Origin: Liolophura sinensis
Taxonomy: Eukaryota > Mollusca > Polyplacophora > Chitonida > Chitonidae
Length of the DNA: 64,000 nucleotides
Reading direction: 5' to 3'
NCBI RefSeq assembly: GCF_032854445.1
Contig: NC_088296.1
Span: 1,488,001 to 1,552,000 of the forward strand
Shown here: positions 7,841 to 64,000 of the stretch, in pieces
How positions within the stretch are numbered: the first letter of the stretch is position 1
Layout: the number at the start of each line of letters is the position of its first letter
Made by a program: the position numbers and the translations under genes
The notes under the pieces: model-generated
Told to the model about the DNA's origin: nothing
Seen by the model: the letters and a program-made list of their open reading frames with translations, nothing else
Database searches by the model: none

Positions 7841-7843
7841 CTG

Positions 7844-20926: not shown

Positions 20927-21011
20927 TAGAATTTTTCATTAGCGACATCTATGTGAAATCAAAAGTTATAAAAGAGTAATCTTTATGAAGCTGAGGGGTT
21001 GGTGTGCTATA

Positions 21012-21839: not shown

Positions 21840-22125
21840 GTTGTATCTTTCCTCATTACCGCCTTCGCCTCATTTGCATGTCGAACCAACATGGCGGTTT
21901 CGTCTCAGCCCGACACAATCACCGGCATGTGACTGATTTTCGTTCTGCTCGGGTGTGCACGGATTAAGGAAGGTTCCAGCTGTCAAATCTGGAGGGAGTT
22001 AATCGTGGCCAGTGGAAATAGGAGTTGTTGCGCTATTTCATTGCGTAAATTCTGCAGAACTAAGCCTGCTTTTCGTCTGTAGTTGTTGTTGGGCCGCAAC
22101 TTGACAGTTCGTCGAGGCTTTCAAC
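21840..22125 (+). promoter_or_regulatory. Probable VPS13 promoter and 5' UTR
   Basis: The region just before the VPS13 start is richer in GC and CpG than its surroundings. It has an octamer motif ATTTGCAT at 21872-21879 and AACATGGCGG at 21888-21897. The latter differs in one base from the YY1 consensus AAGATGGCGG, which in many animal housekeeping genes sits just downstream of the transcription start. No TATA box is obvious. The transcription start is inferred, not seen. Confidence 0.45.
21891..21932 (+). other. Possible short upstream ORF (13 codons)
   Basis: ATG within the YY1-like motif opens a 13-codon frame (MAVSSQPDTITGM) ending in TGA, 193 bases before the VPS13 start. It matters only if transcription begins upstream of 21891. 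Confidence 0.2.
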
Positions 22126-22225
22126 ATGGTGTTCGAGTCGATCGTGGTTGAGTTAATCAACCGTTATTTGGGGGATTTCGTGGAAAATCTAGACCGATCC
22201 CAGCTGAAACTCGGCATATGGGGAG
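22126..22225 (+). CDS. VPS13 coding exon 1
   Basis: 33 codons plus one base, donor G|GTGAGT at 22226. It encodes the VPS13 N-terminal helix and start of the lipid groove ('[20 protein letters not shown]'). Confidence 0.92.
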
Positions 22226-34200: not shown

Positions 34201-37200
34201 CTGACATGGCAAGGCAGCCTGTGAGGCTCTAGACAAGGGGGTCTTGTCGTGGAGAATACCGAGCTGTCTGGGATGTACATGAATGTGGAAGATGTTTGAA
34301 GGTCTATAGGTGCGTGATCGGACTGTTACTGCAGTTATAAAACTTTATCCGATTTGTTATTGCCTTATCTGTCACATTATATTGACACAACAACAACAAG
34401 AAGATAATTCTACCGATGTACAAGTATGCGTGTAAAGTTTTGAAAGGAAACCTGCAAAAACACAATTAACCTTAGTGCACCACAAAAAAAAAGTCCCAGT
34501 ATGTTTGAAATTGCATTTTTAATATCTAAAAACGGAGGTATGGATTTGAATTGTATGTGCGTGTATAGATGATAATTTTCAGAAGGTAAACTTGAGGGGT
34601 TAAAAGAACTAACAACCTTTGAATGAAATCCACCATGCAGCATCAAAATGTCCTAGCGACTGAAAGACTATGAAACATCATAACCATGATTTGCTTATCA
34701 CTGGGTTTAGTGGTGACCTTGAAAATGTAATACCCGAATTCCTCAATCTATTCCCATACAGTAACTTTCAGAGCAATTTGTGCACATTTTAAATTTGTTT
34801 TTGGAAAGAAAACTACACTTTTGGGATTGGCAAGTGTCCAGGCTTCACAAAATGTCTAATTTTATCAGTCAGCAGAGAATAGTGCCTTCAGAATATGCTT
34901 GAATCAACATCTTGCAAACATGTGAAGAGGTTTAAGAATTACTGTATTCTGGATTCTGTCTGGTCTCCTACACTGATATGGCCTCCTTCACTGATCTGGG
35001 CTCCTACACAGATTTGTCCTCCTACACCGATTTGTCCTCCTACACCGATTTGTCCTACACGGATCTGGTCTCCAACACTGATATGGTCTCCTACACTGTT
35101 TTGTCCTACACTGGTCTGGTCTCCTACACTGATATGACCTCCTGCACTGATTTGTCCTACACTGATGTGGTCTCCAACACTGATCTGGTCTCCTACACTA
35201 ATCTGGTCTCCTACACTGATTTGTCCTACACTGATATTGTCTCCTACACTGATATGATCACTGGTCGTACACTGATATGGTCTCCTACACTGATTTGTCC
35301 TACACCGATATTGTCTCCTACACGGATTTGTCCTGCGCTGATATGGTCTCCTACACTGATATGATCACTGGTCGTACACTGATATGGTCGCTGTACATGC
35401 ATATCTGTGGAAAAGTTTGTGAGTGATTAGGGCAGGATTGAGGGGCAGCATGTATAGGGAATTTTGTATTTTAAAGATATTATTTTTACATTTTATTTGA
35501 AAATAATAATGAAATAAAAATTCCATTGAAAAGTCCAACAAACACTTGAGCACAGAGGGTCTGTCCAGTTACCTACATGTAAACCCTTGGCCTGGCAATG
35601 TGACCCATAATATTGACTGTGACTGAAAAATCACACCAAACAAGTCCAACAAACACTTGAGCACAGAGGGTCTGTCCAGTTACCTACATGTAAACCCTTG
35701 GCCTGGCCATGTGACCCATACTATTGACTGTGACTGAAAAATCACACCAAACAAGTCCATCAAACACTTGAGCTCAGAGGGTCTGTCCAGTTACCTACAT
35801 GTAAACCCTTGGCCTGGCCATGTGACCCATACTATTGACTGTGACTGAAAAATCACACCAAACAAGTCCAACAAACACTTGAGCACAGAGGGTCTGTCCA
35901 GTTACCTACATGTAAACCCTTGGCTTGGCAATGTGACCCATACTATTGACTGTGAGTGAAAAATCACACCAAACAAGTCCATCAAACACTTGAGCACAGA
36001 GGGTCTGTCCAGTTACCTACATGTAAACCCTTGGCCTGGCCATGTGACCCATACTATTGACTGTGACTGAAAAATCACACCAAACAAGTCCAACAAACAC
36101 TTGAGAACAGAGGGTCTGTTCAGTTACCTACATGTAAACCCTTGGCCTGGCAATGTGACCCATACTATTGACTGTGACTGAAAAATCACACCAAACAAGT
36201 CCAACAAACACTTGAGCACAGAGGGTCTGTCCAGTTACCTACATGTAAACCCTTGGCTTGGCAATGTGACCCATACTATTGACTGTGACTGAAAAATCAC
36301 ACCAAACAAGTCCAACAAAGACTTTAGAAATGATATTAGTGGAAAGGTCTCCAGCAACCTGCGGATGGTCGTGGGTTTCCCCCGGGCTCTGCCCGGTTTC
36401 CTTCCACCATAATGCTGGCCGCCGTTGTATTAGTGAAATATTCTTGAGTACGGCGTAAAACACCAATCAAATAAATAAATAAATTAGAAATCATATTGGT
36501 TGCTGTCTCTCTTGGCACTCAGCACTGAGAAGCTAGAATAAGGAAACAGGACTGATTGGCCTGGTGTCAGAAGATCATGACTGGGTGAGGTGGCGTCTGG
36601 TGAATTAGCGGCAGCACTTTGGCAGCATGGACTCACCCTGTTACAAGAAGACACAGTATATGTACACACACCTAATGACTCCTCATCATGTGACTGAAAT
36701 CATATGACCGCTAAGCCCCAAGCATACATACAATGATACATACATATAAAACAACAATGAAAAGAAGCATGCACTATGTGGTTCATGACCCTGCCTGGTG
36801 TCATCATCTCAGTTTGCTGTGTCTGGCAGGCCTTTGTATGGTGTACATGTTATGACTGCAGGCTACTCATCCATAGAGCTCACACACCACATACAATGTA
36901 CCTGTCACTTAGCTGTGCCTGGCATGATGGAATTGACCCAACAGTGGTGTATAGTTATAATCATCATAAAACTCTGCCCTGACTCACATCTCTAATAACA
37001 GAGTGTTTTCTGGGTCACTGACGCTCACCATCTGTCAGATATCCAGAGCCTACATGTAATATCCCCTCCCTCCCGTTCCATTCCCCACCCCTCCGGCACA
37101 AACACAAGCTTGTTTGTCGAAGCCTACATCTAATAGTACCTCTGTCGGGTTCTGATACATCTAAAAATTTGATCCTGTGATAAGAAAACATTAAACGTAA

Positions 37201-40200
37201 TTTTATTATTTGCTGTGCGAAAAATGGCATTATCAAGTTGTTAACCGAATTGTCCCCAAGTTGGGTTTATTAATTAATTTTGCCAAGCCAGCCAACAAGC
37301 CACTAGTCAGAGAGGTGCCAGTCCAGTTCTTGCTGATTGGGCTACACCTTAAAGTTGAAATGTAAATTTTCAACCACAAAGTGCCTTGATGTATTCGACC
37401 CCTTGACCTTACTGCCCCAGCATGTGCATCAGTTAAACAGTTATGCGAATACAAACCACTTAGTGTTTCATGGCACTCTTAAGAATATTGTATATTTTCA
37501 ACAGTGGCCAGACTGGGGAAGGGAGGAAACTCTGCAGAGCACTGTGGAAAACAACTGCTTTATGTTGTCCATGTACCTGATATGAACCTCTGGAACTTAT
37601 TTATTTACAGACCACTTTGGTGGCCTAATAGTGAGAGCATCCACTTCGATGTCTGCAGACCTGGGATCAAACCCGGGTCAGGTCATACCTTAGACTGTAA
37701 AAATGGTGCTTGCCGCTGCCTTGCTTGATGCCCAGCACTGGGTAGAGCAAGGAAACATAACTGGTTGGTGCAGCGTCAGTGTGATATGTGAGTGGGCTGG
37801 TGTCATGCCTGGTGTCTTCAGTATGATATGTGACTGGGCCAGTGTCATGCCTGGTGTCTTCAGCATGATATGTGACTGGGCCAGTGTCATGCCTGGTGTC
37901 TTCAGCATGATATGTGACTGGGCCAGTGTCATGCCTGGTGTCTTCAGCATGATATGTGACTGGGCCAGTGTCATGCCTGGTGTCTTCAACACAATACCTG
38001 GGCAGCACTTAGGCAGTATGCACTTGCCATACCACAAGAAGACACAATATATATGTACACACACCTAATGACTCTTCATGGTCACATGACTGAAAAGTTG
38101 TTAAGTACGATGTTAAACCCAAGCATGCATGCATATTGACTTACAGCATGACTAGGAGAAGCTGGATTTGAACTCGCGACCAGAGAACAAGCAGAATCTA
38201 AGGATTTTTCAGAGTGGCCTGATGGTGGCTGTATGAACTATGTAGCAAGTAAATATCATTAAATGTCAGATTGAGGGATAAAACTGTTACAGGGATTTGG
38301 TGTGTTAATGGGAAACATTCATCAGAACAGAGATGATAAGGAAACATTGGACTGAGAAAATCTTATTCCACAATAATATGTACTTTTAATCTGTATTAAT
38401 GTACAAGGTACGTAAGACTGTTTTATATTGGTTCAAATTTTTTCTCATGGTTTAATATTAATGCTCCACTTGCATGGTAGCTTTGTTGTTTCCCTCCATC
38501 ATACTATGTGTATTTCTTTCGGGGCCTTCTGTGGTTTGATGCTACCATAGCATCACCCATGTGACCAGGAGCCTCTAACCAATTACCTTGCTGTGAGTTC
38601 AAGTCCAGCTCATGCTGTCCTACTTTTATGTCATATGTGGGAAGGTCTTCCATCAACCTTGTGATGATCATGGGTTTCCACTGGGCTCTACCTGGTTTCC
38701 TCCAACCAGATTTATGCTAGCTACTTTCATATATTTAATGGTTTTCTCCCACCAGATAATGCTTCCTACCATCATATGTTTAATGGTTTCCTCCCACCAG
38801 ATAATGCTTGCTACCATCATGTATTTAATGGTTTCCTCCCACCAGATAATGCTTCCATTTTTTTAACAAGTCAGCAGTGTAGTACACATTTGGCGGATGT
38901 GTTAAAATAAGTGAATTCCATTTTTATCCTTCAGTGTGGTGTACAGTAAAATACATGTACCATTCAAACAAATGAAATACTACGAAAAAATGTGAACAGT
39001 TAACAAATAGATACTATTTCTGCTTTATATATGTGGAGGGTAGTTTAGACAAATGTGAAAATGTGGGTAGTCTTCAAACAATTAGTCAACACCTGGCCAC
39101 TTGGCCATAAAACCATTTGCTCTCAGCAGATAATAATTTTCTCAATTAGCAGAACTTATTTTAAATCATTGGGTTTGCCACGTACCCATTAAGCGGGCTT
39201 TGGTAGGGTCCCAGCCTGGTGGGTTCTGCGACCTTAAAATTCCGGACAGCTGTCATGCAGGAAATATTCTGGAGTACGGCTCATAACACCGACTGTTCAC
39301 GTTAATAAATGAATGTACATGTAGCCCTGCATGTGATTGTGCACTCAATACTGCAGTGTTTCATGACAGGAATTTTAGTCCAACAGGACTTTTAAGGCCG
39401 CTACTTGTTCAAATCGAGTTGTGAAGGAGTTTAGCAGTGACATTTTGCCTTACTCGTCACACGTGTAAATCTGAATGTATGGCCGATTGTGTGTGTATAG
39501 TGTATATTATGTTATCCTGTATCAGACAAAATACTCCACTTTTCATTGGCCAACAACACACCATCACACCATATATTCTCGAATCCTGCAGACACGGTCA
39601 AATGTGTTTGCTGAGTAGGTTATCTCCCATTGTGGGGTTGTGAATACAATAGTCACGCCGCTGACACTGAGTGAAACAATTCACCTACATGTACACTGTA
39701 TACGTGTACATCGATCTTCTGCACTGAACTGATAGGTCTCTGCAGGATAAATTCGTTACCTGGTTACTTAGTAATAGGATACACAGGTATATGGTGTCAG
39801 TAATCCTCCTATTGGGTGAAGCATCACATTGAGCCAGGCGACACCATATATTTGAGTATCCTATCAATGAGTCATCATGCCTTGGGTCAGGCATCACATT
39901 GAGGGAGGTGACACCATATATTTGAGTATCCTATCGCTGAGTCATCATGCCTTGGGTCAGGCATCACATTGAGGGAGGTGACACCATATATTTGAGTATC
40001 CTATCAATGAGTCATCATGCCTTGGGTCAGGCATCACATTGAGGGAGGTGACACCATATATTTGAGTATCCTATCGCTGAGTCATCATGCCTTGGGTCAG
40101 GCATCACATTGAGGGAGGTGACACCATATATTTGAGTATCCTATCAATGAGTCATCATGCCTTGGGTCAGGCATCACATTGAGGGAGGTGACACCATATA

Positions 40201-43200
40201 TTTGAGTATCCTATCGCTGAGTCATCATGCCTTGGGTCAGGCATCACATTGAGGGAGGTGACACCATATATTTGAGTATCCTATCAATGAGTCATCATGC
40301 CTTGGGTCAGGCATCACATTGAGGGAGGTGACACCATATATTTGAGTATCCTATCGCTGAGTCATCATGCCTTGGGTCAGGCATCACATTGAGGGAGGTG
40401 ACACCATATATTTGAGTATCCTATCAATGAGTCATCATGCCTTGGGTCAGGCATCACATTGAGGGAGGTGACACCATATATTTGAGTATTCTATAGCTGA
40501 GTCACCATGCCTTGGGTCAGGCATCACATTGAGGGAGGTGACACCATATATTTGAGTATCCTATCAATGAGTCACCATGCCTTGGGTCAGGCATCACATT
40601 GAGGGAGGTGACACCATATATTTGAGTATCCTATCGCTGAGTCATCATGCCTTGGGTCAGGCATCACATTGAGGGAGGTGACACCATATATTTGAGTATC
40701 CTATCAATGAGTCATCATGCCTTGGGTCAGGCATCACATTGAGGGAGGTGACACCATATATTTGAGTATCCTATCAATGAGTCATCATGCCTTGGGTCAG
40801 GCATCACATTGAGGGAGGTGACACCATATATTTGAGTATCCTATCGCTGAGTCATCATGCCTTGGGTCAGGCATCACATTGAGGGAGGTGACACCATATA
40901 TTTGAGTATTCTATCAATGAGTCATCATGCCTTGGGTCAGGCGTCACATTGAGGGAGGTGACACCATATATTTGAGTATTCTATAGCTGAGTCACCATGC
41001 CTTGGGTCAGGCATCACATTGAGGGAGGTGACACCATATATTTGAGTATCCTATCAATGAGTCATCATGCCTTGGGTCAGGCATCACATTGAGGGAGTTG
41101 ACATCATATATTTGAGTATCCTATAGCTGAGTCACCATGCCTTGGGTCAGGCATCACATTGAGGGAGGTGACACCATATATTTGAGTATCCTATCAATGA
41201 GTCATCATGCCTTGGGTCAGGCATCACATTGAGGAAGGTGACACCATATATTTGAGTATCCTATCGCTGAGTCATCATGCCTTGGGTCAGGCATCACATT
41301 GAGGGAGGTGACACCATATATTTGAGTATCCTATAGCTGAGTCACCATGCCTTGGGTCAGGCATCACATTGAGGGAGGTGACACCATATATTTGAATATC
41401 CTATCGCTGAGTCATCATGCCTTGGGTCAGGCATCACATTGAGGGAGGCGACACCATATATTTGAGTATCCTATCAATGAGTCATCATGCCTTGGGTCAG
41501 GCGTCACATTGAGCCAGGCGACACCATATATTTGCGTATCCTATCACTGAGTCACCATGGACATGTAACTAATAACGATGCCAGTTAGTTAGTAGATTGG
41601 ATGTGTAACCATGGTGATATGTGCATTCAGCTTGTTTTTATTTGTTTCAGGTGATGTTGTTCTGAAAAACTTGGATTTAAAGGAAAGTGCTTTGGTAAGT
41701 ACAACTACTTATACTGCGCATACTGAGACTTACACTTACAGTACATGTATGGAGAGTGTGTGGAGGTGGGCACAGGAATTCTGGTCCGTCCCTGTACAAC
41801 ACTTACCATACATGTATTAAGTGGGTGTGGACGTGGGCACAGGAATTCTGGTCCATCCCTGCACAACACTTACCGTACATATATGGAGAGTGTGTGGACG
41901 TGGGCACAGGAATTCCGGTCCATCCCTGCACAACACTTACCGTACATGTACGGAGTGTGTGTGGACACAGGAATTCTTGTCCGTCCCTGCACAACACTTA
42001 CCGTACATGTATGGAGTGTGTGTGGACATGGGCACAGGAATTCTGGTCTGTCCCTGCACAACACTTACCGTATATGTATTGAGTGGGTGTGGACATGGGC
42101 ACAGGAATTCTGGTCTGTCCCTGCACAACACTTACCATACATGTATTAAGTGGGTGTGGACGTGGGCACAGGAATTCTGGTCTGTCCCTGCACAACACTA
42201 ACTGTACATGTATGGAGTGTGTGTGGACGTGGACACAGGATTTGTGGTCCGTCCCTGTACAACACTTACCGTACATGTATGGAGTGTGTGTGGACGTGGG
42301 CACAGGATTTCTGGTCTGTCCCTGTACAACACTTACCGTACATGTATGGTGTGCGTGTGGACGTGGGCACAGGATTTCTGGTCCATCCCTGCACAACACT
42401 TACCGTACATGTATGGTGTGTGTGTGGACGTGGGCACAGGATTTCTGGTCCGTCCCTGCACAACACTTACCGTACATGTATGGTGTGTGTGTGGACGTGG
42501 GCACAGGAATTCTGGTCCGTCCCTGCACAACACTTACCGTACATGTATGGTGTGTGTGTGGACGTGGGCCACAGGAATTCTGGGTCCGTCCCTGCACAAC
42601 ACTAACTGTACATGTATGGAGTGTGTGTGGACGTGGTTACAGGAATTCTGGTCCGTCCCTGTACAACACTTACAGTACATGTATGGTGTGTGTGTGGACG
42701 TGGGCACAGGATTTCTCGTCCGTCCCTGCACAACACTTACCGTACATGTATGGAGTGTGTGTGGACGTGGGCCACAGGAATTCTGGTCCGTCCCTGCACA
42801 ACACTTACCGTACATGTATGGTGTGTGTGTGGACATGGGCACAGGAATTCTGGTCCGTCCCTGCACAACACTTACCGTACATGTATGGAGTGTGTGTGGG
42901 ACGTGGGCACAGGATTTCTGGTCCATCCCTGCACAACACTTATCATACATGTATGGAGTGTGTGTGGACGTGGACACAGGAATTCTTGTTTGTCCCTGCA
43001 CAACACTAACTGTACATGTATTGAGTGGGTGTGGACGTGGGCACAGGAATTCTAGTCCCTCCCTGTACAACACTTACAGTACATGCATGGAGTGTGTGTG
43101 GACGTGGGCACAGGAATTCTTGTCCGTCCCTGCACAACACTAACTGTACATGTATGGAGTGTGTGTGGACGTGGGCACAGGAATTCTGGTCCGTCCCTGT

Positions 43201-46200
43201 ACAACACTTACCGTACATGTATGGTGTGTGTGTGGACGTGGGCACAGGAATTCTTGTCCGTCCTGCACAACACTAACTGTACATGTATGGAGTGTGTGTG
43301 GACACAGGAATTCTGGTCCGTCCGTGCACAACACTTACCGTACATGTATGGAGTGTGTGTGGATGTAGGCACAGGAATTCTGGTCTGTCCGTGCACAACA
43401 CTTACCGTACATGTATGGAGTGTGTGTGGACACAGGAATTCTTGTCCGTCCCTGTACAACACTTACCGTACATGTGTGGAGTGTGTGTGGACGTGGGCAC
43501 AGGAATTCTGGTCCATCCCTGCACAACACTAACTGTACATGTATGGAGTGTGTGTGGACGTGGACACAGGAATTCTGGTCCGTCCCTGCACAACACTTAC
43601 TGTACATGTATGGAGTGTGTGTGGATGTGGGCACAGGAATTCTTGTCCGTCCCTGCACAAACACTTACCGTACATGTATGGAGTGTGTGTGGACACAGGA
43701 ATTCTGGTCCGTCCCTGTACAACACTTACCGTACATGTGTGGAGTGTGTGTGGACGTGGGCACAGGAATTCTGGTCCGTCCCTGCACAACACTAACTGTA
43801 CATGTATGGAGTGTGTGTGGATGTGGACACAGGAATTCTTGTCCGTCCCTGCACAACACTTACCGTACATGTATTGAGTGTGTGTGGATGTGGGCACAGG
43901 AATTCTGGTCCGTCCCTGTACAACACTTACCGTACATGTATGGTGTGTGTGTGGACGTGGGCACAGGAATTCTTGTTCGTCCCTGCACAACACTAACTGT
44001 ACATGTATGGAGTGTGTGTGGACGTGGTTACAGGAATTCTGGTCCGTCCCTGTACAACACTTACAGTACATTGTATGGAGTGTGTGTGGACACAGGAATT
44101 CTGGTCCGTCCCTGTACAACACTTACCGTACATGTGTGGAGTGTGTGTGGACGTGGGCACAGGAATTCTGGTCCGTCCCTGCACAACACTAACTGTACAT
44201 GTATGGAGTGTGTGTGGATGTGGACACAGGAATTCTGGTCCATCCCTGTACAACACTTGCCGTACATGTATGGAGTGTGTGTGGACGTGGGCACAGGAAT
44301 CCTGGTCCGTCCCTGTACAACACTTACCGTACATGTATGGAGTGTGTGTGGACGTGGGCACAGGAATCCTGGTCCGTCCCTGTACAACAGTTACTGTGCA
44401 TGTACATGTATGGAGTGTGTGTGGACGTGGGCACAGGAATTCTGGTCCGTCCCTGTACAACGGTTACCGTACATGTATTGAGTGTGTGTGGACGTGGGCA
44501 CAGGAATCCTGGTCCGTCCCTGTACAACAGTTACTGTACATGTATGGAGTGTGTGTGGACGTGGGCACAGGAATTCTGGTCCGTCCCTGCACAACACTTA
44601 CCGTACATGTATGGAGTGTGTGTGGACGTGGTTACAGGAATTCTGGTCCGTCCCTGCACAACACTAACTGTACATGTATGGAGTGTGTGTGGACGTGGAC
44701 ACAGGATTTCTGGTCTGTCCCTGCACAACACTTACCGTATATGTATGGAGTGTGTGTGGACGTGGGCACAGGAATTCTGGTCCGTCCTGCACAACACTTA
44801 CCGTATATGTATGGAGTGTGTGTGGACGTGGGCACAGGAATTCTGGTCCGTCCTTGAACAACACTTACCGTACATGTATGGAGTGTGTGTGGACGTGGGC
44901 ACAGGAATTCTGGTCCGTCCATGTACAACAGTTACCGTACATGTATGGAGTGTGTGTGGAGGTGGGCACAGGAATTCTGGTCCGTCCCTGCACAACACTA
45001 ACTGTACATGTATGGAGTGTGTGTGGACATGGACACAGGATTTCTGGTCCGTCCCTGCACAACACTTACCGTACATGATGGAGTGTGTGTGGACACAGGA
45101 ATTCTGGTCCGTCCCTGCACAACACTAACTGTACATGTATGGAGTGTGTGTGGACATGAGCACAGGAATTCTGGTCTGTCCCTGCACAACACTTACCGTA
45201 TATGTATGGAGTATGTGTGGACACAGGAACTCTGGTCCATCCCTGAACGACACTTACCGTACATGTATGGAGTGTGTGTGGATTGGACACAGGAATTCTG
45301 GTCCGTCCCTGCACAACACTTATCGTACATGTATGGAGTGTGTGTGGACACAGGAATTCTGGTCCATCCCTTGCACAACACTTATCATACATGTATGGAG
45401 TGTGTGTGGACGTGGGCACAGGAATTCTGATCCGTCCCTGCACAACACTTACCGTACATGTATGGAGTGTGTATGGACGTGGGGCACAGGAATTCTGGTC
45501 CATCCTTGAACAACACTTACCGTACATGTATGGAGTGTTTGTGGACGTGGGCACAGGAATTCTGGTCCGTCCCTGCACAACACTTAGCGTACATGTATGG
45601 AGTGTGTATGGACGTGGGCACAGGAATTCTGGTCCGTCCCTGCACAACACTTACCGTACATGTATGGAGTGTGTGTGGACACAGGAACTCTGGTCCATCC
45701 TTGAACAACACTTACCGTACATGTATGGAGTGTGTGTGGATTGGACACAGGAATTCTGGTCCGTCCCTGCACAACACTTACGGTACATGTATGGAGTGTG
45801 TGTGGACGTGGGCACAGGAATTCTGGTCCGTCCCTGCACAACACTAACTGTACATGTATGGAGTGTGTGTGGACGTGGGCACAGGAATTTCGGTCCATCC
45901 CTGTACAACACTAACTGTACATGTATGGAGTGTGTATGGACGTGGGCACAGGAATTCTGGTCCATCCTTGAACAACACTTACCGTACATGTATGGAGTGT
46001 GTGTGGATGTGGGCACAGGAATTCTGGTCCGTCCCTGCACAACACTTACCGTACATGTATGGTGTGTGTGTGGACATGGGCACAGGAATTCTTGTTCGTC
46101 CCTGCACAACACTAACTGTACATGTATGGAGTGTGTGTGGACGTGGTTACAGGAATTCTGGTCCGTCCCTGTACAACGCTTACCGTACATGCATGGAGTG

Positions 46201-49697: not shown

Positions 49698-50555
49698 GTG
49701 AGTTTGTGCTGGCAAGTTTAGTTGTATTGTACTTGCTTTGATATTTAACACGATTTTTGATGAATGTTAAAGAATACATGAAAAAGTAAAGTACAATAAA
49801 ACAAAGAATGTGGCCCTAAGGAAAATTAAGGAAGGTATTCCAATGCATTCAGAAAATTTTTTCTTTGTTGGGGCATATTTTATATTTCTTAATAACCCCT
49901 CTATTTAATGAGTAATTTTCTTCAGTTCTCAAGAATATTGAATATATTGTTGTCCTCAGGGACCATATTAAAAATGCAGTGATATTGATGGGTTTTCAAT
50001 GAAGTGAGTCCCTGGGACCCAGAGGCGGCTAAATGAGTGGGTCCCATTGGAAATGAGTGGGTCCTGAATAAAATGTTTTTCTTGGAGTTAAACTTCTGGT
50101 CGATTTAATAATTTTTAATAAAATAAATTAAATAATGCTTTTGGATGACTCAGACTATGATCAGGAGATCTCTACTGCGCCTGATAAATGCCTATAAGGG
50201 CAATATCTAGGAGAAAACAGTTAAGCTTCTGTTCCCGAACTGGAAACATTGTTTTAGTCACTGAATTTATGTTTAGATTGCTGCATGTCCTTTGCAATTC
50301 ATTCTTCATATTGTACCTGGAACTGGTACTGATTTTCTAGAATAATACTGTAAGGATTTATAACTAGATATAAAATATAGAAACTGTTCCGTTATCTACC
50401 ATTATACAGTGTGTTCATTTCGAAATATTTCTAAGAAGCAGTCTTGTATTTATAAGATAAAAGTTTATAAACAATACAAAACACGTAAATGGCATAGGTC
50501 TAGTAAATCAGCAGTATGTGAGTTCTCACATTAAACAGTGTTCAACAACAACATG
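49698..50555 (+). other. Start of VPS13 intron 4 up to the assembly gap
   Basis: AT-rich non-coding sequence. I find no acceptor followed by the expected next VPS13 residues. It contains a short doubled 'tgagtgggtcc' at about 50034-50067. Confidence 0.5.
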
Positions 50556-50755
50556 NNNNNNNNNNNNNNNNNNNNNNNNNNNNNNNNNNNNNNNNNNNNN
50601 NNNNNNNNNNNNNNNNNNNNNNNNNNNNNNNNNNNNNNNNNNNNNNNNNNNNNNNNNNNNNNNNNNNNNNNNNNNNNNNNNNNNNNNNNNNNNNNNNNNN
50701 NNNNNNNNNNNNNNNNNNNNNNNNNNNNNNNNNNNNNNNNNNNNNNNNNNNNNNN
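50556..50755. other. Assembly gap, 200 N
   Basis: Exactly 200 N, a round placeholder size typical of scaffolding software rather than a measured gap. The sequence resumes inside a 111-bp satellite already seen at 35533, and then repeats the region from 35.5 kb onward. Confidence 0.97.
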
Positions 50756-52079
50756 GTCCAACAAACACTTGAGCACAGAGGGTCTGTCCAGTTACCTGCA
50801 TGTAAACCCTTGGCCTGGCCATGTGACCCATACTATGGACTGTGACTGAAAAATCACACCAAACAAGTCCAACAAACACTTGAGCACAGAGGGTCTGTCC
50901 AGTTACCTGCATGTAAACCCATGGCCTGGCATTGTGACCCATACTATTGACTGTGACTGAAAAATCACACCAAACAAGTCCATCAAACACTTGAGGACAG
51001 AGGGTCTGTCCAGTTACCTACATGTAAACCCATGGCCTGGCAATGTGACCCATAATATTGACTGTGACTGAAAAATCACACCAAACAAGTCCAACAAACA
51101 CTTGAGCACAGAGGGTCTGTCCAGTTACCTACATGTAAACCCATGGCCTGGCAATGTGACCCATACTATTGACTGTGACTGAAAAATCACACCAAACAAG
51201 TCCAACAAACACTTGAGCACAGAGGGTCTGTCCAGTTACCTACATGTAAACCCATGGCCTGGCAATGTGACCCATAATATTGACTGTGACTGAAAAATCA
51301 CACCAAACAAGTCCAACAAACACTTGAGCACAGAGGGTCTGTCCAGTTACCTACATGTAAACCCATGGCCTGGCAATGTGACCCATACTATTGACTGTGA
51401 CTGAAAAATCACACCAAACAAGTCCAACAAAGACTTGAGCACAGAGGGTCTGTCCAGTTACCTACATGTAAACCCTTGGCCTGGCCATGTGACCCATACT
51501 ATTGACTGTGACTGAAAAATCACACCAAACAAGTCCAACAAACACTTGAGCACAGAGGGTCTGTCCAGTTACCTACATGTAAACCCTTGGCCTGGCTATG
51601 TGACCCATAATATTGACTGTGACTGAAAAATCACACCAAACAAGTCCAACAAACACTTGAGCACAGAGGGTCTGTCCAGTTACCTACATGTAAACCCTTG
51701 GCCTGGCCATGTGACCCATACTATTGACTGTGACTGAAAAATCACACCAGACAAGTCCAACAAACACTTGAGCACAGAGGGTCTGTCCAGTTGTAAACCC
51801 TTGGCCTGGCAATGTGACCCATACTATTGACTGTGACTGAAAAATCACACCAAACAAGTCCAACAAACACTTGAGCACAGAGGGTCTGTCCAGTTACCTG
51901 CATGTAAACCCTTGGCCTGGCCATGTGACCCATACTATGGACTGTGACTGAAAAATCACACCAAACAAGTCCATCAAACACTTGAGCACAGAGGGTCTGT
52001 CCAGTTACCTACATGTAAACCCATGGCCTGGCAATGTGACCTATACTATTGACTGTGACTGAAAAATCACACCAAACAA
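50756..52079. repeat. 111-bp satellite, 12 copies (block B)
   Basis: Same unit as at 35533-36309. Twelve copies, one with an 8-bp net deletion near 51790. A change 'cccttgg' to 'cccatgg' is common here. The array begins at the gap edge, so the true copy number is unknown. Confidence 0.96.
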
Positions 52080-52117
52080 GTCCAACAAAGACTATAGAAA
52101 TGATATTAGTGGAAAGG

Positions 52118-52254
52118 TCTCCAGCAACCTGCGGATGGTCGTGGGTTTCCCCAGTGCTCTGCCCGGTTTCCTCCCACCATAATGCTGGCCGCCATCGTAT
52201 AAGTGAAATATTCTTGAGTACGGCGTAAAACACCAATCAAATAAATAAATAAAT
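52118..52254 (+). mobile_element. SINE family 1, 5'-truncated (block B)
   Basis: Counterpart of 36339-36484 with a few substitutions ('ccagtgctctgcccggtttc', 'gccgccatcgtataagtg'). Confidence 0.85.
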
Positions 52255-52267
52255 TAGAAATGATATT

Positions 52268-52515
52268 GGTTGCTGTCTCTCTTGGCACTCAGCACTGAGA
52301 AGCTAGAATAAGGAAACAGGACTGGTTGGCCTGGTGTCAGAAGATCATGACTGGGTGAGGTGGTGTCTGGTGAATTAGCGGCAGCACTTTGGCGGCATGG
52401 ACTCACCCTGCTACAAGAAGACACAGTATATGTACACACACCTGATGACTCCTCATCATGTGACTGAAATCATATGACTGCTAAGCCCCAAGCATACATA
52501 CAATGATACATACAT
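52268..52515 (+). mobile_element. SINE family 2, headless copy (block B)
   Basis: Counterpart of 36498-36745, with changes such as 'ggtggtgtctggtg'. Confidence 0.8.
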
Positions 52516-53390
52516 ATAAAACAACAATGAAAAGAAGCATGCACTATGTGGTTCATGACCCTGCCTGGTGTCATCATCTCAGTTTGCTGTGTCTGGCAGG
52601 CCTTTGTTTGTATCGTGTACATGTTATGACTGCGGGCTATTCATCCATAGAGCTCACACACCACATACAATGTACCTGTCACTTAGCTGTGTCTGGCATG
52701 ATGGAATTGACCCAACAGTTGTGTATAGTTATAATCATCATAAAGCTCTGCCCTGACTCACATCCCTAATAACAGAGTGTTTTCTGGGTCACTGACGCTC
52801 ACCATCTGTCAGATATCCAGAGCCTACATGTAATATCCCCTCCCTCCCGTTCCATTCCCCACCCCTCGGCACAAACACAAGCTTGTTTGTCGAAGCCTAC
52901 ATCTAATAGTACCTCTGTCGAGTCCTGATACATCTAAAAATTTGATCCGTTGATCTTAATGAAGAAAACATTAAACGTAATTTTATTATTTGCTGTGCGA
53001 AAAATGGCATTATCAAGTTGTTAACCGAATTATCCCCAAGTTGGGTTTATTAATTAATTTTGCCAAGCCAGCCAACAAGCCACTAGTCAGAGAGGTGCCA
53101 GTCCAGTTCTTGCTGATTGGGCTACACCTTAAAGTTGAAATGTAAATTTTCAACCACAAAGTGCCTTGATGTATTCGACCCCTTGACCTTACTGCCCCAG
53201 CATGTGCATCAGTTAAACAATTATGCGAATACAAACCACTTAGTGTTTCATGGCACACTTAAGAATATTGTATATTTTCAACAGTGGCCAGACTGGGGAA
53301 GGGAGGAAACTCTGCAGAGCACTGTGGAAAACAACTGCTTTATGTTGTCCATGTACCTGATATGAACCTCTGGAACTTATTTATTTACAG

Positions 53391-53917
53391 ACCACTTTGG
53401 TGGCCTAATAGTGAGAGCATCCACTTCGATGTCTGCAGACCTGGGATCAAACCCGGGTCAGGTCATACCTTAGACTGTAAAAATGGTGCTTGCCGCTGCC
53501 TTGCTTGATGCCCAGCACTGGGTAGAGCAAGGAAACATAACTGGTTGGTGCAGCGTCAGTGTGATATGTGAGTGGGCTGGTGTCATGCCTGGTGTCTTCA
53601 GTATGATATGTGACTGGGCCAGTGTCATGCCTGGTGTCTTCAGCATGATATGTGACTGGGCCAGTGTCATGCCTGGTGTCTTCAGCATGATATGTGACTG
53701 GGCCAGTGTCATGCCTGGTGTCTTCAGCATGATATGTGACTGGGCCAGTGTCATGCCTGGTGTCTTCAACACAATACCTGGGCAGCACTTAGGCAGTATG
53801 CACTTGCCATACCACAAGAAGACACAATATATATGTACACACACCTAATGACTCTTCATGGTCACATGACTGAAAAGTTGTTAAGTACGATGTTAAACCC
53901 AAGCACGCATGCATATT
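53391..53917 (+). mobile_element. SINE family 2, full length with 42-bp expansion (block B)
   Basis: Counterpart of 37611-38137. The internal 42-bp array has the same copy number in both blocks, unlike the 70-bp and 111-bp arrays. Confidence 0.82.
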
Positions 53918-54300
53918 GACTTACAGCATGACTAGGAGAAGCTGGATTTGAACTCGCGACCAGAGAACAAGCAGAATCTAAGGATTTTTCAGAGTGGCCT
54001 GATGGTGGCTGTATGAACTATGTAGCAAGTAAATATCATTAAATGTCAGATTGAGGGATAAAACTGTTACAGGGATTTGGTGTGTTAATGGGAAACATTC
54101 ATCAGAACAGAGATGATAAGGAAACATTGGACTGAGAAAATCTTATTCCACAATAATATGTACTTTTAATCTGTATTAATGTACAAGGTACGTAAGACTG
54201 TTTTATATTGGTTCAAATTTTTTCTCATGGTTTAATATTAATGCTCCACTTGCATGGTAGCTTTGTTGTTTCCCTCCATCATACTATGTGTATTTCTTTC

Positions 54301-54525
54301 GGGGCCTTCTGTGGTTTGATGCTACCATAGCATCACCCATGTGACCAGGAGCCTCTAACCAATTACCTTGCTGTGAGTTCAAGTCCAGCTCATGCTGTCC
54401 TACTTTTATGTCATATGTGGGAAGGTCTTCCATCAACCTTGTGATGATCATGGGTTTCCACTGGGCTCTACCTGGTTTCCTCCAACCAGATTTATGCTAG
54501 CTACTTTCATATATTTAATGGTTTT
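54301..54525 (+). mobile_element. SINE family 1, full head (block B)
   Basis: Counterpart of 38521-38745 at offset 15780; no difference noticed. It is followed by the same 45-bp three-copy repeat (54486-54638). Confidence 0.8.
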
Positions 54526-54638
54526 CTCCCACCAGATAATGCTTCCTACCATCATATGTTTAATGGTTTCCTCCCACCAGATAATGCTTGCTACCATCAT
54601 GTATTTAATGGTTTCCTCCCACCAGATAATGCTTCCAT

Positions 54639-55593
54639 TTTTTTAACAAGTCAGCAGTGTAGTACACATTTGGCGGATGTGTTAAAATAAGTGAATTCCA
54701 TTTTTATCCTTCAGTGTGGTGTACAGTAAAATACATGTACCATTCAAACAAATGAAATACTACGAAAAAATGTGAACAGTTAACAAATAGATACTATTTC
54801 TGCTTTATATATGTGGAGGGTAGTTTAGACAAATGTGAAAATGTGGGTAGTCTTCAAACAATTAGTCAACACCTGGCCACTTGGCCATAAAACCATTTGC
54901 TCTCAGCAGATAATAATTTTCTCAATTAGCAGAACTTATTTTAAATCATTGGGTTTGCCACGTACCCATTAAGCGGGCTTTGGTAGGGTCCCAGCCTGGT
55001 GGGTTCTGCGACCTTAAAATTCCGGACAGCTGTCATGCAGGAAATATTCTGGAGTACGGCTCATAACACCGACTGTTCACGTTAATAAATGAATGTACAT
55101 GTAGCCCTGCATGTGATTGTGCACTCAGTACTGCAGTGTTTCATGACAGGAATTTTAGTCCAACAGGACTTTTAAGGCCGCTACTTGTTCAAATCGAGTT
55201 GTGAAGGAGTTTAGCAGTGACATTTTGCCTTACTCGTCACACGTGTAAATCTGAATGTATGGCCGATTGTGTGTGTATAGTGTATATTATGTTATCCTGT
55301 ATCAGACAAAATACTCCACTTTTCATTGGCCAACAACACACCATCACACCATATATTCTCGAATCCTGCAGACATGGTCAAATGTGTCTGCTGAGTAGGT
55401 TATCTCCCTTTGTGGGGTTGTGAATACAATAGTCACGCCGCTGACACTGAGTGAAACGATTCACCTACATGTACACTGTATACGTGTACATCGATCTTCT
55501 GCACTGAACTGATAGGTCTCTGCAGGATAAATTCGTTACCTGGTTACTTAGTGATAGGATACACAGGTATATGGTGTCAGTAATCCTCCTATT
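54639..55593. other. Non-coding spacer (block B)
   Basis: Counterpart of 38859-39814 with few substitutions (for example near 55128, 55374, 55388 and 55410). No exon. Confidence 0.5.
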
Positions 55594-55660
55594 GGGTGAG
55601 GCATCACATTGAGCGAGGCGACACCATATATTTGCGTATTCTATCACTGAGTCACCATGC
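55594..55660. repeat. 70-bp satellite, single copy (block B)
   Basis: One unit with 'gaggcatcacattgagcgag' + 'gcgacaccatatatttgcgt', equivalent to the outermost copies of the 25-copy array in block A. Confidence 0.9.
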
Positions 55661-55750
55661 ACATCTAACTAATAACGATGCCACTTAGTTAGTAGATTGG
55701 ATGTGTAACCATGGTGATATGTGCATTCAGCTTGTTTTTATTTGTTTCAG

Positions 55751-55794
55751 GTGATGTTGTTCTGAAAAACTTGGATTTAAAGGAAAGTGCTTTG
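55751..55794 (+). CDS. VPS13 coding exon 2, copy B
   Basis: Identical to 41651-41694, including acceptor 'tttgtttcag' and donor TTG|GTAAGT. It lies after exon 4 in the assembled order, so it cannot take part in a normal VPS13 transcript from exon 1 here. The reading frame continues past the donor without a stop into the array, to beyond 57400. Confidence 0.85.
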
Positions 55795-55836
55795 GTAAGT
55801 ACAACTACTTATACTGCGCATACTGAGACTTACACT

Positions 55837-58800
55837 TACCGTACATATATGGAGAGTGTGTGGAAGTGGGCACAGGAATTCTGGTCCGTCCCTGTACAAC
55901 ACTTACCGTACATGTGTGGAGTGTGTGTGGACGTGGGCACAGGAATTCTGGTCCATCCCTGCACAACACTTACCGTACATGTATGGAGTGTTTGTGGACG
56001 TGGACACAGGAATTCTGGTCCATCCCTGCACAACACTTACCATACATGTATGGAGTGTGTGTGGATTTGGACACAGGAATTCTGGTCCGTCCCTGCACAA
56101 CACTTACCGTACATGTATGGAGTGTGTGTGGACGTGGACACAGGAATTCTGGTCCATCTCTGTACAACACTTACCGTACATGTATGGAGTGTGTGTGGAC
56201 ACAGGAATTCTGGTGCATCCCTGCACAACACTTACAGTACATGTATGGAGTGTGTGTGGATTTGGACACAGGAATTCTGGTCCGTCCCTGCACAACACTT
56301 ACCGTACATATATGGAGTGTGTGTGGACGTGGGCACAGGAATTCTGGTCCATCCCTGCACAACACTTACCGTACATGTGTGGAGTGTGTGTGGACACAGG
56401 AATTCTGGTGCATCCCTGCACAACACTTACAGTACATGTATGGAGTGTGTGTGGACACAGGAATTCTGGTCCATCCCTGCACAACACTTACCGTACATGT
56501 ATGGAGTGTGTGTGGGCACAGGAATTCTCGTCCATCCCTGCACAACACTTACCATACATGTATGGAGTGTGTGTGGATTTGGACACAGGAATTCTGGTCC
56601 GTCCCTGCACAACACTTACCGTACATATATGGAGTGTGTGTGGACGTGGGCACAGGAATTCTGGTCCATCCCTGCACAACACTTACCGTACATGAATGGA
56701 GTGTGTGTGGACGTGGACACAGGAATTCTGGTCCATCCCTGCACAACACTTACCGTACATGTATGGAGTGTGTGTGGATTTGGACACAGGAATTCTGGTC
56801 CGTCCCTGCACAACACTTACCGTACATATATGGAGTGTGTGTGGACGTGGGCACAGGAATTCTGGTCCATCCCTGCACAACACTTACCGTACATATATGG
56901 AGAGTGTGTGGACGTGGGCACAGGAATTCTGGTCCATCCCTGCACAACACTTACAGTACATGTATGGAGTGTGTGTGGATTTGGACACAGGAATTCTGGT
57001 CCGTCCCTGCACAACACTTACTGTACATATATGGAGTGTGTGTGGACGTGGGCACAGGAATTCTGGTCCATCCCTGCACAACACTTACCGTACATGTATG
57101 GAGTGTGTGTGGACGTGGACACAGGAATTCTGGTCCATCCCTGCACAACACTTACCGTACATGTATGGAGTGTGTGTGGACGTGGGCACAGGAATTCTGG
57201 TCCATCCCTGCACAACACTTACCGTACATGTATGGAGTGTGTGTGGACACAGGAATTCTGGTCCATCCCTGCACAACACTTACCGTACATGTATGGAGTG
57301 TGTGTGGAAGTGGACACAGGAATTCTGGTCCGTCCGTGCAGAACACTTACCATACATGTATGGAGTGTGTGTGGACGTGGGCACAGGAATTCTGGTCCGT
57401 CCGTGCACAACACTTATCGTACATGCATGGAGTGTGTGTGGACTTGGGCATAGGAACTCTGGTCCATCCCTGAACGACACTTACCGTACATGTATGGAGT
57501 GTGTGTGTGGACGTGGGCACAGGAATTCTGGTCCGTCCCTGCACAACACTTACCGTACATGCATGGAGTGTGTGTGGACTTGGGCATAGGAACTCTGGTC
57601 CATCCCTGAACGACACTTACCGTACATGTATGGAGTGTGTGTGGACGTAGGCACAGGAATCCTGGTCCATCCCTGCACAACACTTACCGTACATGTATGG
57701 AGTATGTGTGGACGTGGGCACAGGAATCCTGGTCCATCCCTGCACAACACTTACCGTACATGTATGGAGTGTGTGTGGACTTGGGCATAGGAACTCTGGT
57801 CCATCCCTGAACGACACTTACCGTACATGTATGGAGTGTGTGTGGACGTGGGCACAGGAATCCTGGTCCGTCCCTGCACAACACTTACCGTACATGCATG
57901 GAGTGTGTGTGGACTTGGGCATAGGAACTCTGGTCCATCCCTGAACGACACCGTACATGTATGGAGTGTGTGTGGACGTGGGCACAGGAATTCTGGTCCG
58001 TCCCTGCACAACACTTACCGTACATGCATGGAGTGTGTGTGGACGTGGGCACAGGAGTTCTGGTCCATCCTTGAACAACACTTACCGTACATGTATGGTG
58101 TGTGTGTGGATGTGGATACAGGAATTCTGGTCCGTCCCTGCACAACACTTACCGTACATGTATGGAGTGTGTGTGGACACAGGAATTCTGGTCCATCCAT
58201 GCACAACACTTACCGTACATGTATGGAGTGTGTGTGGACGTGGGCACAGGAATTCTGGTCCGTCCGTGCACAACACTTACCGTACATGCATGGAGTGTGT
58301 GTGGACTTGGGCATAGGAACTCTGGTCCATCCCTGAACGACACTTACCGTACATGTATGGAGTGTGTATGGACACAGGAATTCTGGTCTGTCCCTACACA
58401 ACACTTACCGTACATGTATGGAGTGTGTGTGGACACAGGAATTCTGGTCCATCCCTGCACAACACTTACCGTACATGCATGGAGTGTGTGTGGACTTGGG
58501 CATAGGAACTCTGGTCCATCCTTGAACAACACTTACCGTACATGTATGGAGTGTGTGTGGACGTGGGCACAGGAATTCTGGTCCATCCTTGAAGAACACT
58601 TACCGTACACGTATGGGTGTGTGTGGACGTAGACACAGGAATTCTGGTCCATCCCTGCACAACACTTACCGTTCATGTATGGAGTGTTTGTGGATGTGGG
58701 CACAGGAATTCTGGTCCGTCCCTGCACAACACTTACCGTACATGTATGGAGTGTGTGTGGACGTGTGCACAGGAATTCTGGTCCATCCCTGCACAACACT

Positions 58801-61800
58801 TACCATACACGTATGGTGTGTGTGTGTGGACGTGGGCACAGGAATTCTGGTCCATCCTTGAACAACAGTAACTGTACATGTATGGAGTGTGTGTGGACGT
58901 GGGCACAGGAATTCTGGTCCATCCCTGCACAACACTTACCGTACATGTGTGAAGTGTGTGTGGACACAGGAATTCTGGTCCATCCCTGTACAACAGTAAC
59001 TGTACATGTATGGAGTGTGTGTGGACGTGGGCACAGGAATTCTGGTCCATCCTTGAACAACACTTACCGTACATGTATGGAGTGTGTATGGACGTGGGCA
59101 CAGGAATTCTGGTCCATCCCTGCACAACACTAACTGTACATGCATGGAGTGTGTGTGGACGTGGGCACAGGAATTTTGGTCCGTCCCTGTACAACACTTA
59201 CCGTACATGTATGGAGTGTGTGTGGACACAGGAATTCTGGTCCATCCCTGCACAACACTTACCGTACATGTATGGAGTGTGTGTGGACACAGGAATTCTG
59301 GTCCGTCCCTGCACAACACTTACCGTTCATCCCTGTACAACAGTAACTGTACATGTATGGAGTGTGTGTGGACTTGGGCACAGGAATTCTGGTCCATCCC
59401 TGCACAACACTTACCGTACATGTGTGAAGTTTGTGTGGACACAGGAATTCTGGTCCATCCCTGTACAACAGTAACTGTACATGTATGGAGTGTGTGTGGG
59501 ACGTGGGCACAGGAATTCTGGTCCGTCCCTGCACAACACTTACCATACATGTATGGAGTGTGTGTGGACACAGGAACTCTGGTCCATCCCTGAACGACAC
59601 TTACCGTACATGTATGGAGTGTGTGTGGACGTGGACACCGGAATTCTGGTCTGTCCCTGCACAACACTTACCGTACATGTATAGAGTGTGTGTGGACACA
59701 GGAATTCTGGTCCATCCCTGCACAACACTTACCGTACATGTATGGAGTGTGTGTGGACACAGGAATTCTGGTCCATCCCTGCACAACACTTACCGTACAT
59801 GTATGGAGTGTGTGTGGACGTGGGCACAGGAATCCTGGTCCGTCCCTGCACAACACTTACCGTACATGTATGGAGTGTGTGTGGATTTGGACACAGGAAT
59901 TCTGGTCCGTCCTTGCACAACACTTACCGTACATGTATGGAGTGTGTGTGGACACAGGAATTCTGGTCCATCCCTGCACAACACTTACCGTACATGTATG
60001 GAGTGTGTGTGGACACAGGAATTCTGGTCCATCCCTGTACAACAGTAACTGTACATGTATGGAGTGTGTGTGGACGTGGGCACAGGAATTCTGGTCCGTC
60101 CCTGCACAACACTTACCATACATGTATGGAGTGTGTGTGGACACAGGAACTCTGGTCCATCCCTGAACGACACTTACCGTACATGTATGGAGTGTGTGTG
60201 GACGTGGACACCGGAATTCTGGTCTGTCCCTGCACAACACTTACCGTACATGTATAGAGTGTGTGTGGACACAGGAATTCTGGTCCATCCCTGCACAACA
60301 CTTACCGTACATGTATGGAGTGTGTGTGGACACAGGAATTCTGGTCCATCCCTGCACAACACTTACCGTACATGTATGGAGTGTGTGTGGACACAGGAAT
60401 TCTGGTCCATCCCTGTACAACAGTAACTGTACATGTATGGAGTGTGTGTGGACGTGGGCACAGGAATTCTGGTCCGTCCCTGCACAACACTTACCATACA
60501 TGTATGGAGTGTGTGTGGACACAGGAACTCTGGTCCATCCCTGAACGACACTTACCGTACATGTATGGAGTGTGTGTGGACGTGGACACCGGAATTCTGG
60601 TCTGTCCCTGCACAACACTTACCGTACATGTATAGAGTGTGTGTGGACACAGGAATTCTGGTCCATCCCTGCACAACACTTACCGTACATGTATGGAGTG
60701 TGTGTGGACACAGGAATTCTGGTCCATCCCTGCACAACACTTACCGTACATGTATGGAGAGTGTGTGGACGTGGGCACAGGAATTCTGGTCCATCCTTGA
60801 ACAACACTTACCGTACATGTATGGTGTGTGTGTGGACGTGGATACAGGAATTCTGGTCCGTCCTTGAACAACACTTACCGTACATGTGTGGAGTGTTTGT
60901 GTGGACGTGGATAAAGGAATTCTGGTCCATCCTTGAACAACACTTACCGTACATGTATGGAGTGTGTGTGGACGTGGGCACAGGAATTCTGGTCCATCCT
61001 TGAACAACACTTACCGTACATGTATGGTCTGTCTGTGGACGTGGATACAGGAATTCTGGTCTGTCCCTGCACAACACTTAGCGTACATGTATGGAGTGTG
61101 TGTGGACACAGGAATTCTGGTCCGTCTCTGCACAACACTTACCGTACATGTATGGAGTGTGTGTGGACGTGGGCACAGGAATTCTGATCCGTCCCTGCAC
61201 AACACTTACCGTACATGTATGGAGTGTGTGTGGACGTGGGCACAGGAATTCTGGTCCATCCTTGAACAACACTTACCGTACATGTGTGGAGTGTGTGTGG
61301 ACGTGGACACAGGAATTCTGGTCCATCCCTGCACAACACTTACCATACATGTATGGAGTGTGTGTGGATTTGGACACAGGAATTCTGGTCCGTCCCTGCA
61401 CAACACTTACCGTACATGTATGGAGTGTGTGTGGACGTGGACACAGGAATTCTGGTCCATCTCTGTACAACACTTACCGTACATGTATGGAGTGTGTGTG
61501 GACACAGGAATTCTGGTGCATCCCTGCACAACACTTACAGTACATGTATGGAGTGTGTGTGGATTTGGACACAGGAATTCTGGTCCGTCCCTGCACAACA
61601 CTTACCGTACATATATGGAGTGTGTGTGGACGTGGGCACAGGAATTCTGGTCCATCCCTGCACAACACTTACCGTACATGTGTGGAGTGTGTGTGGACAC
61701 AGGAATTCTGGTGCATCCCTGCACAACACTTACAGTACATGTATGGAGTGTGTGTGGACACAGGAATTCTGGTCCATCCCTGCACAACACTTACCGTACA

Positions 61801-64000
61801 TGTATGGAGTGTGTGTGGGCACAGGAATTCTCGTCCATCCCTGCACAACACTTACCATACATGTATGGAGTGTGTGTGGATTTGGACACAGGAATTCTGG
61901 TCCGTCCCTGCACAACACTTACCGTACATATATGGAGTGTGTGTGGACGTGGGCACAGGAATTCTGGTCCATCCCTGCACAACACTTACCGTACATGAAT
62001 GGAGTGTGTGTGGACGTGGACACAGGAATTCTGGTCCATCCCTGCACAACACTTACCGTACATGTATGGAGTGTGTGTGGATTTGGACACAGGAATTCTG
62101 GTCCGTCCCTGCACAACACTTACCGTACATATATGGAGTGTGTGTGGACGTGGGCACAGGAATTCTGGTCCATCCCTGCACAACACTTACCGTACATATA
62201 TGGAGAGTGTGTGGACGTGGGCACAGGAATTCTGGTCCATCCCTGCACAACACTTACAGTACATGTATGGAGTGTGTGTGGATTTGGACACAGGAATTCT
62301 GGTCCGTCCCTGCACAACACTTACCGTACATATATGGAGTGTGTGTGGACGTGGGCACAGGAATTCTGGTCCATCCCTGCACAACACTTACCGTACATGT
62401 ATGGAGTGTGTGTGGACGTGGACACAGGAATTCTGGTCCATCCCTGCACAACACTTACCGTACATGTATGGAGTGTGTGTGGACGTGGGCACAGGAATTC
62501 TGGTCCATCCCTGCACAACACTTACCGTACATGTATGGAGTGTGTGTGGACACAGGAATTCTGGTCCATCCCTGCACAACACTTACCGTACATGTATGGA
62601 GTGTGTGTGGAAGTGGACACAGGAATTCTGGTCCGTCCGTGCAGAACACTTACCATACATGTATGGAGTGTGTGTGGACGTGGGCACAGGAATTCTGGTC
62701 CGTCCGTGCACAACACTTATCGTACATGCATGGAGTGTGTGTGGACTTGGGCATAGGAACTCTGGTCCATCCCTGAACGACACTTACCGTACATGTATGG
62801 AGTGTGTGTGTGGACGTGGGCACAGGAATTCTGGTCCGTCCCTGCACAACACTTACCGTACATGCATGGAGTGTGTGTGGACTTGGGCATAGGAACTCTG
62901 GTCCATCCCTGAACGACACTTACCGTACATGTATGGAGTGTGTGTGGACGTAGGCACAGGAATCCTGGTCCATCCCTGCACAACACTTACCGTACATGTA
63001 TGGAGTATGTGTGGACGTGGGCACAGGAATCCTGGTCCATCCCTGCACAACACTTACCGTACATGTATGGAGTGTGTGTGGACTTGGGCATAGGAACTCT
63101 GGTCCATCCCTGAACGACACTTACCGTACATGTATGGAGTGTGTGTGGACGTGGGCACAGGAATCCTGGTCCGTCCCTGCACAACACTTACCGTACATGC
63201 ATGGAGTGTGTGTGGACTTGGGCATAGGAACTCTGGTCCATCCCTGAACGACACTTACCGTACATGTATGGAGTGTGTGTGGACGTGGGCACAGGAATTC
63301 TGGTCCGTCCCTGCACAACACTTACCGTACATGCATGGAGTGTGTGTGGACGTGGGCACAGGAGTTCTGGTCCATCCTTGAACAACACTTACCGTACATG
63401 TATGGTGTGTGTGTGGATGTGGATACAGGAATTCTGGTCCGTCCCTGCACAACACTTACCGTACATGTATGGAGTGTGTGTGGACACAGGAATTCTGGTC
63501 CATCCATGCACAACACTTACCGTACATGTATGGAGTGTGTGTGGACGTGGGCACAGGAATTCTGGTCCGTCCGTGCACAACACTTACCGTACATGCATGG
63601 AGTGTGTGTGGACTTGGGCATAGGAACTCTGGTCCATCCCTGAACGACACTTACCGTACATGTATGGAGTGTGTATGGACACAGGAATTCTGGTCTGTCC
63701 CTACACAACACTTACCGTACATGTATGGAGTGTGTGTGGACACAGGAATTCTGGTCCATCCCTGCACAACACTTACCGTACATGCATGGAGTGTGTGTGG
63801 ACTTGGGCATAGGAACTCTGGTCCATCCTTGAACAACACTTACCGTACATGTATGGAGTGTGTGTGGACGTGGGCACAGGAATTCTGGTCCATCCTTGAA
63901 GAACACTTACCGTACACGTATGGGTGTGTGTGGACGTAGACACAGGAATTCTGGTCCATCCCTGCACAACACTTACCGTTCATGTATGGAGTGTTTGTGG
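55837..64000. repeat. 67/61-bp minisatellite (block B), continues past the window
   Basis: Same unit as 41737-48155, more than 120 copies and still running at 64000. A diagnostic 'tggatttggacacagg' variant recurs. 56037-58690 is repeated almost exactly at 61340-63997 (offset 5303, later 5307 after a 4-bp deletion near 57951). A 378-bp block of six units is repeated at 59924-60301 and 60302-60679. Confidence 0.97.

Follow-up and report, generated by a model that had tools for sequence, protein, structure and literature searches.

A VPS13 gene of the A/C type has its 5' end on the forward strand of the window, the 64,000-nt stretch of Liolophura sinensis DNA that was analysed, and its second exon is met there twice, once on each side of a scaffold gap. 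The question raised by this locus is whether part of VPS13 is repeated in the animal or only in its assembly. The repeated stretch is most likely present in the sequence and not in the animal, as an assembly artefact of a known kind. From comparison of the bases, the arrangement is very probably a heterotype false duplication, in which two haplotype contigs that overlap from intron 1 on were scaffolded end to end. This reading is favoured over a real duplication because the divergence between the copies is a mosaic and the gap lies exactly between them, and it is supported by the unchanged state of exon 2 and its splice sites in both copies. The exons and the gap were placed as follows.

22126-22225, forward strand: VPS13 exon 1, 100 nt, ending in phase 1 (tblastn to VPS13A/C N-termini, GT donor, length)
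41651-41694, forward strand: VPS13 exon 2, first copy, 44 nt (tblastn, exact boundaries)
48346 (canonical) or 48347 (homology) to 48389, forward strand: VPS13 exon 3, 44 nt or 43 nt
49601-49697, forward strand: VPS13 exon 4, 97 nt, in phase 2 at its end if the homology frame holds that far
50556-50755, no strand: scaffold gap of 200 N, the sole N run in the window
55751-55794, forward strand: VPS13 exon 2', second copy, the same as the first copy at 44 of 44 bases

The exons were located by tblastn with VPS13 N-termini as queries, giving two E values for each exon. Exon 1 was matched at 22126 (E 6e-12 and 4e-14), exon 4 near 49600 (3e-07 and 7e-09) and exon 3 near 48350 (0.012 and 0.005), while exon 2 was matched at two sites, near 41650 and near 55750, with E 0.17 and 0.40 at each. 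The weak values for exon 2 were attributed to its shortness, and its calls were based on splice sites, phase and order. Matches with E above 3 were left out, and a minus-strand match at 8205-8116 (E 0.005 and 0.09) was discarded as it looks unrelated. A second exon 3 or exon 4 was not found by tblastn in the window, which stops within the intron-2 array of the second copy. The identity of the gene was supported by the joined product of exons 1-4, which, with exon 3 starting at 48347, scored 164.8 bits against the Pfam family VPS13_N (PF12624; curated cut-off 80, E 3.3e-48). Among solved chains, the joined N-terminal product matched human VPS13C (E 2.3e-35) and VPS13A (E 6.8e-33). A pattern-based scan of viral contigs for relatives of the product returned 4 stretches that fit the pattern, of which 0 were confirmed.

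Along the forward strand the order is exon 1, 2, 3, 4, gap and exon 2', with both copies in the same scaffold and orientation. This is the order given in the original prediction, and it was borne out by the N run at 50556-50755, the order of the tblastn matches and the exact boundaries. The exons had also been described there as identical, which was found to be correct for all 44 bases of exon 2, and the splice sites flanking it are likewise unchanged. The left contig ends at 50555, in intron 4. The right contig starts at 50756 within a 111-bp satellite, the same one that opens the first copy, in agreement with the earlier claim that the second copy starts at the gap edge in a satellite. It is homologous to the first copy from its first base, through the 111-bp array and then through 52095-55585. 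When the sequence around the gap (50300-50900) was searched for direct repeats that might link its edges, only the 111-bp unit was found. The unit phase at the start of the right contig (50756) is that of the first unit of the first array (35533); this is a 1 in 111 coincidence that was noticed post hoc and is given little weight.

The anatomy of the two copies and the divergence between them were observed directly. Arrays were called by TRF, and the units of the 111-bp and 67-bp arrays were mapped individually. The parts of the copies are listed below.

35531-36324, forward strand: 111-bp satellite, first copy, intron 1, 7.2 units (TRF, unit map)
36325-39805, forward strand: single-copy intron 1, first copy, aligned to 52095-55585
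39812-41559, forward strand: 70-bp array, first copy only, 25 units (TRF)
41732-48150, forward strand: 67-bp minisatellite, first copy, intron 2, 97 units, 88 of them distinct
50756-52093, forward strand: 111-bp satellite, second copy, at least 12.1 units (TRF, unit map)
52095-55585, forward strand: single-copy intron 1, second copy, aligned to 36325-39805
55592-55660, forward strand: 70-bp unit, second copy, about one unit (read by eye from the sequence)
55832-64000, forward strand: 67-bp minisatellite, second copy, intron 2, at least 124 units, extending past the window end

The single-copy sequence was compared over two aligned pairs, 36325-39805 with 52095-55585 and 41560-41731 with 55660-55831. 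These differ by 37 substitutions in 3652 columns (1.0%; 24 transitions and 13 transversions) and 3 indel events, a similarity far above chance expectation; the first pair alone accounts for 34 substitutions in 3480 columns. The indels, at 36833, 37093 and 37182, are 4, 1 and 7 bases long, with one single-base event among them, as measured in a slightly wider alignment that includes array edges and in which 41 substitutions were counted. Homopolymer lengths pointed to no particular sequencing method. The divergence is uneven. In bins that were set post hoc, after inspection of the data, 27/1156, 2/2110, 5/215 and 3/172 columns were substituted, so that a 2.1-kb block at 0.1% is flanked on both sides by sequence at about 2.3%. 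When the 34 substitutions of 36325-39805 were placed uniformly 20000 times, a substitution-free run as long as the observed maximum (1222 bp) arose once, and a dispersion over 300-bp bins as high as that observed never arose. The claim that the copies differ by few substitutions therefore holds in number, 37 in 3652, with the addition that these are strongly clustered.

Patchy divergence of this kind is what would be expected of recombining haplotypes with differing local ages. A single duplication without subsequent exchange would be expected to leave uniform divergence, unlike that observed, although gene conversion between paralogues could be another source of a mosaic. The clustering may also reflect mutation near minisatellites, and the substitution-rich parts do adjoin arrays of unequal length.

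The arrays differ to a much greater extent. The tandem-array lengths had been predicted to differ between the copies, and this was seen for the 111-bp (7.2 and at least 12.1 units), 70-bp (25 and about 1) and 67-bp (97 and at least 124) arrays, while the 42-bp and 45-bp arrays have equal copy numbers in both copies (TRF). Not one whole unit is identical between the two 111-bp arrays (7 and 12 units). The description of the second copy as near-identical to 35.5-41.8 kb thus applies to the single-copy part and fails for the arrays, in which no whole 111-bp unit is common and 25 units of the 70-bp array are set against about one.

The 67-bp arrays of intron 2 were compared unit by unit. Up to the window end, the second array amounts to 124.5 copies by TRF and to 125 pieces by segmentation, one of only 32 bases. 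Of the 88 distinct unit sequences in the first array and the 65 in the second, three are common to both. There are 16 exact unit matches from one array to the other, and not one of them continues over two whole units; the longest exact match, at 47565 and 61153, measures 133 bases, or roughly two units read in a different phase. Nearest neighbours and distances were compared for the 97 units of the first array (A) and the first 82 of the 125 pieces of the second (B). The nearest neighbour lay in the unit's own array in 79% of cases, compared to a mean of 50% and a maximum of 60% in 200 shuffles, and the mean unit distances were 6.56 within A, 6.43 between A and B and 5.68 within B. The position of an A unit and that of its best B match were weakly collinear (Spearman 0.29, P 0.0035, 97 units, with ties averaged and neighbouring units not independent), which may be a remnant of an old unit order. 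Tiles of three units resembled their own array more than the other, at 0.907 versus 0.876 for 31 tiles of A and 0.917 versus 0.871 for 27 tiles of the first B block. The unit order of these arrays fits alleles and paralogues alike and does not discriminate between them. On the bases compared here, the intron-2 minisatellite appears to change much faster than its flanks.

The right 67-bp array contains a block repeat: over 2709 aligned columns, 55993-58697 differs from 61296-64000 by 1 mismatch and 8 gapped columns. The two blocks are offset by about 5303 bases, or 81 units, and in the 160 bases to their left 10 positions differ. Either a block was duplicated recently or the assembly slipped a second time.

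The reading frame was considered next to the human genes. The phase is 1 after exon 1 and 0 after exon 2, and on canonical splicing of exons 1-4 the first two are open and a stop follows right after the exon 2-3 junction. This corresponds to an exon 3 of 44 nt between canonical splice sites, compared to 43 nt by homology, which puts the frame from exon 2 off by one. Exon 3 of human VPS13A is given as 43 bp in the relevant part of PMC12411190, and a splice mutation in intron 3, c.188-5, as it is named in PMC3280254, agrees with a start of exon 4 at c.188. The homologous part of exon 3 is thus like that of human VPS13A, and the 44 nt between splice sites is unlike it. That exon 3 is out of frame in the left copy may be due to a base error or to damage to this allele; it may also mark a copy in decay, which would favour duplication.

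In the homology frame, splicing of exon 4 to exon 2' produces a TGA at the junction, which weakly suggests that a real duplicate at this site would break VPS13 unless skipped, conditional on the frame in which exon 4 ends. The end of this exon (49660-49697, the last 11 residues) departs from the hydrophobic LYLLVVP-like stretch of VPS13A and VPS13C, and an alternative frame there reads AIPNI and looks somewhat more VPS13-like, so that a second frame oddity is possible, if weakly supported. With the alternative frame the phase after exon 4 would be 1, and exon 2' would be joined without a frameshift. Given this doubt over how exon 4 ends, the frame argument against duplication carries little weight.

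The following course of events is proposed for the heterotype false duplication. Contig 1, from one haplotype, would carry VPS13 exons 1-4 and end at 50555 in intron 4, while contig 2, from the other haplotype, would start in the 111-bp satellite of intron 1 and continue through the allelic exon 2 onwards, giving an overlap from intron 1 to intron 4. This overlap would have been missed by the assembler or the purging step, with alleles about 2% apart locally and arrays kilobases apart, and the scaffolder would have placed the contigs in tandem, separated by 200 N as a fixed gap. Each haplotype of the animal would carry the locus once, and the overlap should be removed. From the observed layout we infer that the copies are allelic, that the contigs continue to dovetail past 64000 and that the assembly proceeded in this way. 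The original prediction had put forward that a haplotype contig was left uncollapsed and entered the scaffold. Its core, two haplotypes of one locus, is retained on the mosaic divergence of about 1%, the array lengths and the gap; the small inserted haplotig is replaced by the overlapping ends of two long contigs, which would be the simpler geometry. A gap of 200 N is the default of YaHS. Gaps of 200 N are present in a YaHS-scaffolded assembly described in PMC12134992.

Separate haplotype contigs wrongly put in a primary assembly are among the errors treated in Rhie et al. 2021 (PMC8081667), and heterotype false duplication is described in passages of that paper and of Ko et al. 2022. The present case is like these in that two diverged haplotype sequences stand in one scaffold with a gap between them and exons repeated out of order. 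Known cases are recognised by half depth, by discordant linked reads and by k-mers in single copy; here the assignment was made by sequence comparison. The case is unlike the known ones in that its arrays differ far more than the flanks, and reading the copies as haplotypes means that a very fast turnover of the 67-bp arrays must be assumed, with more change than the 1% divergence of the flanks implies. A parallel is found in hypervariable minisatellites such as human MSY1, for which a section of PMC2599865 gives 48-118 units and an inferred structural mutation rate of 2-11% per generation. The intron-2 arrays share with it tens to more than 100 units and large differences in length and structure between alleles, and are unlike it in their 67-bp units, which vary widely (in one array 88 of 97 are distinct), and in lying within a VPS13 intron.

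Another reading is considered unlikely: that VPS13 truly underwent a recent tandem duplication at its 5' end, reaching from intron 1 into intron 2 or beyond, after which gene conversion made the divergence patchy and the upstream copy may have begun to decay. It would account for the presence of the second copy in the same scaffold and orientation, for the out-of-frame exon 2-3 junction of the left copy, for the large differences between the intron-2 arrays, and for the open join to exon 2' in one possible frame of the exon 4 end. It is opposed by the assembly gap that exactly divides the copies, by the start of the duplicated part at the very first base of the right contig, by a divergence too uneven for a single event without conversion, and by the immediate stop at the exon 4-exon 2' junction in the homology frame. 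The more specific form of a partial tandem duplication, in which the upstream copy is decaying with exon 3 out of frame, short-range gene conversion has preserved the 2.1-kb block and the intron-2 minisatellite has been largely rebuilt, is if anything less likely.

A homotype false duplication, in which one haplotype was assembled twice with sequencing errors at the contig ends, is judged very improbable. Such duplications are likewise found at contig boundaries, according to part of Rhie et al. 2021 (PMC8081667), but the 37 substitutions, 24 of them transitions, with only one single-base event among the 3 indels, do not look like errors, and the array differences are too large for errors on one haplotype. 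The least probable explanation, and one that we regard as extremely remote, is that contigs belonging to two separate, paralogous VPS13 loci in other parts of the genome were wrongly joined; an intronic divergence of about 1%, with 2/2110 columns in one block, would need a very recent dispersed duplication, the product of which would have had to land beside its source by chance.

If the overlap were left in place, VPS13 would be annotated with a repeated exon 2 and may pass as a gene expansion. The heterotype false duplication would also place two apparent alleles of one VPS13 intron side by side, with flanks differing by 0.1-2.3% and 67-bp arrays with little common unit order, and would illustrate the speed at which an intronic minisatellite can change.

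The window as a whole is rich in tandem arrays of many unit lengths (46 TRF rows, some overlapping), many of them in VPS13 intron 1; such stretches lie at 172-4335, 18778-30325 and 32348-35389. No exact match to a 42-base stretch of the 67-bp unit was found in viral contigs. A search against Rfam gave no family at the gathering score, and ARAGORN predicted no tRNA. A SINE-like tail, presumably typical of molluscs, is present at 14939-14980, 36439-36480 and 52209-52250 with 0-1 mismatches, where none would be expected by chance; the last two are counterparts in the two copies. This tail had no exact match in genome or viral collections, and a full-text search with three pieces of it found no paper. 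Upstream of VPS13, an open frame on the reverse strand at 7096-7863 encodes RING and B-box zinc fingers and is TRIM-like.
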